Origin: Isosphaeraceae bacterium
Lineage (GTDB): Bacteria; Planctomycetota; Planctomycetia; Isosphaerales; Isosphaeraceae
DNA: 64,000 nt
Direction: 5' to 3'
Assembly (NCBI GenBank): GCA_021324445.1
Contig: JAJPJC010000267.1
Span: forward strand, 1-64,000
In this document: positions 62,899 through 64,000 of the stretch, one piece after another
Numbering within the stretch: the first letter of the stretch is position 1
Layout: every line of letters starts with the position of its first letter
Translations under genes and position numbers: made by a program
The notes under the pieces: generated by a model
What the model saw: the letters and a program-made list of their open reading frames with translations, nothing else
Told to the model about the DNA's origin: nothing
The model's database searches: none

Positions 62899-63261
62899 TC
62901 AGCCCTGAGTCTCCATGTACTCCTTGAGGACGACGGCGCTGTTCTGTTCCCGGTCCTTGGCGGCGAAGACGAACGTGATCGGCCCCTCCTTGAGCCGCCC
63001 CCTCAAGTCATCGAGCACCTCGCCCTTGTCGGCCAGCTCCGCCCGGTATCGCCTGCGGAACTCCTCCCACTTGTCCGGGTCGTGGCCGTACCACTTGCGG
63101 AGTTCAGTGCTGGGGGCGAGTTCCTTCAGCCACAGGTCGATCGCCGCCTTGTCCTTGCTGACCCCTCGGGGCCAGAGCCGCTCGACCAGGATGCGGCTCC
63201 CGTCATCCGGCGCCGGCTCCTCGTAGGCCCGCTTGAGCCGGATCGTCGCCTTTTTGGCCAT
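62899..63261 (-). CDS. DUF488 protein
   Basis: 120 residues from ATG 63261. All landmarks of the short DUF488 (YeaO-like) group are present: IRLKRAYEEPAPDDGSRILV, ERLWPRGVSKDKA, DLWLKELAPSTELRKWYGHD and ITFVFAAKDREQNSAVVLKEY. Function unknown; other members are found in redox, metal or nucleotide stress contexts. Its start lies 58 bases inside the end of the NADAR gene on the same strand, so both proteins should be made from one message with coupled translation. Confidence 0.92.
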   Translation of the reverse strand: MAKKATIRLKRAYEEPAPDDGSRILVERLWPRGVSKDKAAIDLWLKELAPSTELRKWYGHDPDKWEEFRRRYRAELADKGEVLDDLRGRLKEGPITFVFAAKDREQNSAVVLKEYMETQG

Positions 63262-64000
63262 TCCACAACTCCTCCCGGACTTGCATGAGGGTCTGGCCGA
63301 GCCTGTTCTGGCCGCTGCCATCGCCGCCGTCGCCCCAATACTTGTCCTTCTCGGTGTGCTCGACGATCCGGGCATCGCCGGATCCCAGCAGGACCTCCCG
63401 CAGGTCGGCGTGCTGGGTGAACTTGGCCAGCACCGCCTCGTGCATGATGGCGTCCTTGACCGCTTCCCAGTCCTTGCGGAGCGGGCGCCGACGACTGCGC
63501 CCCATCCGAGCAGCAACCATGGGCGACTTCGCCTGACGGACCTCGTCCTCGTCGGGCGTGCCGGCGAACTTCTGCGCCTGGAAGTAGTGCTCGCTCGTCG
63601 GCCAAGTCTTGCCCTTGAGCTTGACGGGATGGGGCGAGAAGTTGGAGAAGCAGCCGTACTCGCCGCTCACGCTGTCGAAGTAGATCACCTCGCCCACGGC
63701 ATCGCCCGCCGGTTCGCCGGTCGTCGCAGCCCTGGGAGGGACTCGGCGCTTCGCGCGGCTCGTGAAGGCATCAGACTCCCCACGGTTGGGGCCAGTTCGG
63801 GTCGTGGCCTCTTCCTCAGGCGTGGCGACTGACCGGTGCGAATCACCAGGCACATATTCTTCGTAGACCACCAGCGTACCATCCCAGTCCCCGAACACGG
63901 CCTCGACGATCACCCGGACCTTCTTCCACGATAACCCGCCGTGGCCCACGCCGATGCGGGGCATGGCAATGCGGATGATGCCCTCGGCACCCGCCTGCGT
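63203..64000 (-). CDS. Macro-domain/NADAR fusion protein (5' end outside window)
   Basis: The frame is open to the window edge; 265 residues are visible. The first 40 (EGIIRIAMPRIGVGHG, LSWKKVRVIVEAVFGDWD) are the end of an Appr-1''-p processing macro domain, in which this strand contacts ADP-ribose. A 60-residue polar linker follows (SHRSVATPEEEATTRTGPNR). A NADAR (YbiA/DUF1768) domain then runs from VIYFDSVSGEYGCFSNF through SEHYFQAQKF, DAIMHEAVLAKFTQHADLREVLL and DKYWGDGGDGSGQNRLG to LMQVREELWN. NADAR enzymes remove ADP-ribose from guanine in DNA or cut related N-glycosidic bonds; macro domains remove it from thymine or proteins. A single chain with both is a likely ADP-ribosylation eraser. 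Confidence 0.88.
   Translation of the reverse strand, partial: TQAGAEGIIRIAMPRIGVGHGGLSWKKVRVIVEAVFGDWDGTLVVYEEYVPGDSHRSVATPEEEATTRTGPNRGESDAFTSRAKRRVPPRAATTGEPAGDAVGEVIYFDSVSGEYGCFSNFSPHPVKLKGKTWPTSEHYFQAQKFAGTPDEDEVRQAKSPMVAARMGRSRRRPLRKDWEAVKDAIMHEAVLAKFTQHADLREVLLGSGDARIVEHTEKDKYWGDGGDGSGQNRLGQTLMQVREELWNGQKGDDPAQAGLRGAGAG

Follow-up and report, generated by a model that had tools for sequence, protein, structure and literature searches.

The macro–NADAR gene and its DUF488 neighbor

The window analyzed here comprises bases 1–64,000 of a 101,284-bp contig from a 10.8-Mb planctomycete genome, the nearest named relatives of which are uncultured Isosphaeraceae. At its right-hand end lie two overlapping genes on the minus strand, one encoding a macro domain fused to a NADAR domain and the other a DUF488 protein. 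Read over the whole contig, the fusion gene starts with an ATG at contig position 64309 and stops at 63203–63205, encoding 368 amino acids; 63203–64000 lies within the window and 309 bases lie beyond its edge. The macro domain (PF01661) comprises residues 1–152 and extends to contig 64309. Its C-terminal third (residues 104–152) is found at 63854–64000, while residues His22, Asn25, Ser29, and Gln82, discussed below, are encoded outside the window. A linker at residues 153–205 (63695–63853, minus strand), predicted to be disordered and variable in both length and sequence, leads into a NADAR domain of the YbiA family at residues 206–350 (63260–63694, minus strand), recognized through PF08719, TIGR02464, and YbiA itself.

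A preliminary description, made from the window, had one protein joining the end of a macro domain to a complete NADAR domain. The fusion is real, as both domains exceed their Pfam cut-offs on the full chain (Macro PF01661 at residues 22–133, 44.9 bits against a cut-off of 22; NADAR at residues 211–349, 142.6 bits against 35.1), and the NADAR domain is complete as described (PF08719, E=8.6e-42). The macro sequence then noted, MPRIGVGHGG followed by LSWKKV, is present at residues 116–131, and the same open frame runs on into the full NADAR domain; what had been taken for the end of a domain, however, belongs to a complete one once the contig is extended. The fusion ends in a tail of ~18 residues that is read in a different frame over the start of DUF488 and has no counterpart in the other fusions.

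The DUF488 gene (ATG at 63261, end at 62899, minus strand) encodes a YeaO-like protein of the DUF488-N3i subclade (PF22752, 6.7e-39; PF04343, 2.3e-33), a subclade named inactive by Pfam; the protein is free of cysteines. Its 59-base overlap with the fusion gene was confirmed and may couple translation of the two genes in the source genome. This overlap favors the earlier proposal that the fusion protein acts with DUF488 as an antitoxin or specific countermeasure against a DarT-like toxin. When recurrence of the macro–NADAR–DUF488 neighborhood was examined, however, the DUF488 pairing was found in the source genome only, DUF488 being absent near the fusions of two other genomes (G014 and G037) and from all of the relatives' loci. 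In G014 a DUF488 gene lies on another contig, the G037 genome has none at all, and across the 45 genomes the fusion and DUF488 do not co-occur significantly (p=0.23). These absences, together with a cysteine-free protein of an inactive subclade, argue against the antitoxin proposal; DUF488 is judged to lie outside the functional unit, and nothing suggests a shared function.

Relationships and active sites of the two halves

In sequence and fold searches, the macro half matches DarG, TARG1, SCO6735, and Poa1p at 23–29% identity, and its predicted fold resembles those of DarG, TARG1, and SCO6735 (TM 0.77–0.81). Where DarG and TARG1 have their catalytic lysine (Lys80/Lys84), the macro half has Gln82, and Asp125 of TARG1 is not conserved. 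The motif H22-G-C-N-C-Q-G-S29 (HGCNCQGS) is Poa1p-like. His22, Asn25, Ser29, and Gln82 are invariant across eight aligned macro orthologs, and a dN/dS of 0.12–0.13 was obtained for the domain. The preliminary description had assigned the macro domain to the DarG type, which is contradicted both by the replacement of the DarG lysine and by the macro tree: nine DarG-type macro domains, including one from the source genome, group in a clade with 100/100 support that excludes the macro family of the fusion, and nine planctomycete DarGs carry NFPTK where the fusion has Gln82.

SCO6735 of Streptomyces coelicolor, an ALC1-like thymidine-ADP-ribose hydrolase with no toxin tie, likewise has glutamine at this position and shares the stabilizing asparagine and the histidine of the same motif; its fold (5e3b) is similar to that of the macro half (TM 0.78). 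The pairing of Gln82 with Gln85 of SCO6735 was made by motif and via the lysine position of TARG1 and DarG. In SCO6735, the glutamine and asparagine are essential for an activity that cleaves thymidine-ADP-ribose (PMC9411070), and uracil-ADP-ribose is cleaved as well (PMC13036486). The two proteins differ, however, in that identity is only ~26%, the fusion has a Poa1p-like Ser29 and a fused NADAR domain, and Gly23 stands at the position of Val25, where valine or isoleucine has been called SCO6735-specific. Yeast Poa1p, an ADP-ribose 1''-phosphate phosphatase, shares the motif H-x-C-N-C-x-G-S-x-G-x-G-I-A with the macro half, and its His23 and Ser30 are present as His22 and Ser29, although identity is ~24% and sequence similarity is found chiefly in the first 70 residues. 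Two deposited sequences of Poa1p, 6lfs and 6lft, depart from wild type at exactly His23 and Ser30, so the depositors presumably held both to be important, which suggests that this histidine and serine define Poa1p catalysis. On sequence grounds, the macro half is probably a working member of the ALC1-like class with a SCO6735/Poa1p-like active site, rather than a DarG-type domain. The site is mixed, with the glutamine of SCO6735, the histidine and serine of Poa1p, and glycine in place of Val25, and so does not point to a single substrate; thymine de-ADP-ribosylation is possible only by analogy with SCO6735.

The NADAR half shares 55% identity with E. coli YbiA over 141 residues, passes the riboflavin N-glycosidase model TIGR02464 (158 bits, cut-off 73.7; 1.8e-46), matches YbiA 2b3w at 2.2e-56 and could be aligned with 8bau as well; its predicted fold resembles YbiA with a TM of 0.81. 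In the 8bau alignment, the putative catalytic residues Glu240, Lys247, and Glu317 match Glu43, Lys50, and Glu125 of the active site of P. nicotianae NADAR (PMC11543638), and the same catalytic Glu, Lys, and Glu are found in the E. coli YbiA/COG3236 N-glycosidase, which differs from the fusion in being a single-domain protein in another gene context. A glutamate in the last strand, here Glu317, marks the YbiA family, while the BC4488-type NADARs linked to DarT1 bear aspartate (PMC11125620). By these residues and matches, the NADAR half is a member of the YbiA family and not of the BC4488 type tied to DarT1. All YbiA-type NADARs tested removed ADP-ribose from guanine in vitro (PMC11125620; PMC11833690), but in cells they could not substitute for the cognate antitoxin of another system (PMC11125620). 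The dN/dS of this domain is 0.06–0.18.

An AlphaFold model of the full chain (pTM 0.46) predicted two separate folds, one YbiA-like and one DarG/TARG1/SCO6735-like, each with confidence but without a confident mutual placement, joined by a disordered linker (pLDDT <50 at residues 157–205). The linker is 26–47% identical among the three fusions and drifts while both heads are under purifying selection. With mapped active-site residues kept in both domains, neither site is empty, notwithstanding the change of the macro lysine to glutamine. The earlier picture of two ADP-ribose-processing domains in one chain is thus retained insofar as each has a conserved putative active site, but not as a DarG-type macro domain or a DarT1-linked NADAR.

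These features can also be read as small-molecule damage control, in which the NADAR domain would act on reactive intermediates of the riboflavin pathway, as YbiA/COG3236 does, and the macro domain, in the manner of Poa1p, on soluble ADP-ribose derivatives, for example ADP-ribose 1''-phosphate or O-acetyl-ADP-ribose. The TIGR02464 match, the identity to E. coli YbiA, and the agreement of HGCNCQGS with Poa1p at the two residues changed in 6lfs and 6lft are all consistent with this, and Aravind's group has argued that stand-alone Macro and NADAR domains treat mostly soluble ADP-ribose derivatives (PMC9503650; PMC7824862). Several points count against it: KptA, from which ADP-ribose 1''-phosphate usually arises, was searched for in the source genome and not found; the glutamine at position 82 is that of SCO6735; Pfam analysis of the genes near the fusion identified none for riboflavin; and action on two unrelated metabolites would leave the tying of the heads unexplained. 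Small-molecule clean-up is a rather doubtful alternative, although it is the main rival.

Distribution, neighbors, and toxin partners

Macro–NADAR fusions were found in 3 of 45 genomes of the family, in three genera (the source genome, G014, and G037), at 71–72% identity; the existence of such similar proteins in two other genera indicates that the fusion is not due to chance. Relatives mostly keep macro-only or NADAR-only orthologs at separate, distant loci. No further fusion was detected among 392 genomes of the phylum, drawn evenly, a sample in which rare fusions may be missed. An exact-peptide pattern scan of contigs returned 80 loci, all with NADAR and without a nearby macro or DUF488 gene, but as the patterns also missed the diverged fusions of G014 and G037, the scan is not evidence of rarity. 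One candidate from the searches, a 1510-bp match (L067), was rejected as a fusion and proved to be a NADAR gene with a duplicated fragment.

The three fusion loci have no flanking gene in common, and none of the three linkers contains a stop codon. In G037, the NADAR start retains its ATG, and AAGGAGG lies five bases before it; this points to a two-gene unit in which the macro gene lost its stop codon. The trees of the two domains are compatible with one origin of the fusion as well as with several.

In-frame joins to other domains were also seen in the family. In G033 (L041:7239-8138, minus strand), a macro ortholog continues without a stop codon into an in-frame VOC/glyoxalase domain, and in G039 (L038:8206-9294, plus strand), a NADAR ortholog is followed in the same frame by a transglutaminase core domain. 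Read-through fusions are therefore not rare in these genomes, and the macro–NADAR fusion itself could be incidental: adjacent clean-up genes would have merged through loss of the macro stop codon, with each head working as it does alone and nothing gained. The retained start and AAGGAGG in G037, the separate genes of most relatives, the VOC and transglutaminase joins, and the unconserved linker all fit such an origin. Retention of the same pairing in three genera, in unrelated surroundings and with no stop codon in the linker, does not, nor does the recurrence of tandem Macro-NADAR proteins in viruses (PMC9503650). An incidental fusion is considered unlikely, and ranks below small-molecule clean-up.

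The preliminary description had anticipated a DarT-like toxin just to the right of the window. With the contig extended, a Pfam check of the genes lying to the right of the fusion, small unannotated neighbors included, detected no DarT or other ADP-ribosyltransferase (ART); this region holds an ECF sigma factor, a protein kinase, a TPR-CHAT-PDZ protein, and small unknowns. The sigma factor, kinase, and TPR-CHAT-PDZ genes follow one another on the plus strand (L002:5582-11740; contig 67582–73740) and are possibly a signaling or caspase-like unit. On the minus strand, contig 66020–67543 (L002:4020-5543) encodes a 507-aa protein of ~38-residue repeat units (...GNPGTAFAGDLLVLQANGVLLANAGSGW...) with no Pfam match. 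Nor was an ART found near the locus in relatives, as far as these were searched. DarT was present in 12 of 98 genomes searched, but not in G014 or G037; seven near-complete DarTs each adjoin their own DarG with its catalytic lysine, and none lies beside a fusion. DarT is present in the source genome only as broken pieces, close to the end of contig 460 (L201, G000:C460:8000-10514); a DarG-type macro domain with the catalytic lysine lies close to the end of contig 225 (L202, G000:C225:13500-16768), and the two are probably remains of a single decayed DarTG locus that was split in assembly.

The fusion shares its domain superfamilies with the antitoxins of the DarT1-NADAR and DarT2-DarG systems. 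In DarTG2, however, the toxin gene is adjacent, the catalytic residue is lysine (Lys80 in T. aquaticus DarG) where the fusion has Gln82, and DarG carries a C-terminal DarT-binding domain where the fusion has NADAR; in DarTG1, the NADAR is of the BC4488 type, with a catalytic aspartate in the last strand in place of Glu317. Some evidence beyond the DUF488 overlap does favor an antitoxin. SCO6735, which has the same glutamine, can inhibit and reverse DarT (PMC9411070), and there are distant profile matches to PADLOC DarG (2e-32), to the candidate defense NADAR family PDC-M42C (3e-14), and to NCBIfam DS32_2 (90 bits, far under its cut-off of 240). Set against the missing ART and DarT genes, the absent DarG lysine and DarT-binding domain, the separate macro clade, the YbiA-type NADAR, and the single-genome pairing with DUF488, these leave the antitoxin or defense-unit reading largely refuted and very unlikely.

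Macro and NADAR domains in one chain are already known from viruses, with tandem NADAR-Macro proteins reported in viruses (PMC9503650) and jumbo phages (PMC7824862), and the fusion is a new bacterial variant; no published bacterial macro–NADAR fusion was found in the open-access literature. The likeness of the viral proteins lies at the superfamily level: they too combine the two superfamilies in one chain, with both presumed to act on different ADP-ribose bonds. The fusion differs in being a bacterial chromosomal gene, in having a YbiA-type NADAR ~55% identical to E. coli YbiA, in its order of macro followed by NADAR, and in having no SLOG or DUF4326 domain. A viral scan yielded no true macro–NADAR fusion, only an overlapping gene pair on an IMG/VR jumbo-phage contig of 310,542 bp (L196:240-4482), in which 47 bases are shared by a NADAR gene and a GCNC/TQ-type macro gene. 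This pair adjoins DUF1937, nucleoside 2-deoxyribosyltransferase-like, and phosphoribosyltransferase-like genes, the last two of which are in keeping with small-molecule clean-up.

A possible two-headed hydrolase

The best reading, with a probability of roughly 0.45, is that the protein is a stand-alone, chromosomal, toxin-independent two-headed hydrolase of ADP-ribose or ribosyl adducts rather than an antitoxin; small-molecule clean-up, incidental fusion, and the antitoxin follow in that order. The domain make-up, the conservation of both active sites, purifying selection on both heads, the restriction of the fusion to a lineage, and the lack of a conserved neighbor support it, as do retention of the fusion in three genera without common flanks and the overlapping phage pair. 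That the heads are hydrolases, what they act on, and that they co-operate, we infer. An N-terminal macro head and a C-terminal YbiA-type NADAR head on a floppy linker would each hydrolyze a bond to a ribosyl or ADP-ribosyl group. Judged by analogy, guanine would be freed of ADP-ribose by the NADAR head, and thymine, uracil, or other groups linked to ADP-ribose by the macro head; a single protein could thereby clear several types of ADP-ribosylated base or nucleotide left behind by external or stray ADP-ribosyltransferases. Weighing against the two-headed hydrolase are the mixed macro active site, from which the substrate cannot be read, its rarity in a family where the domains are apart in most relatives, and the in-frame joining of the same domains to unrelated ones in two genomes. 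A more specific version is unlikely: a single bacterial enzyme with two unrelated sites that erases ADP-ribose from guanine and from thymine or uracil of DNA or RNA, giving general protection against base-modifying ADP-ribosyltransferase toxins while tied to no single toxin.

The link to DUF488 and the reading as a DarT antitoxin should be dropped. An active fusion protein would combine two erasers in one natural chain with no cognate toxin, and would back the idea that bacteria possess general clean-up enzymes against ADP-ribosylation from outside; it would also be a convenient means of testing whether Gln-bearing Poa1/SCO6735-like macro domains target nucleic-acid bases or small molecules.
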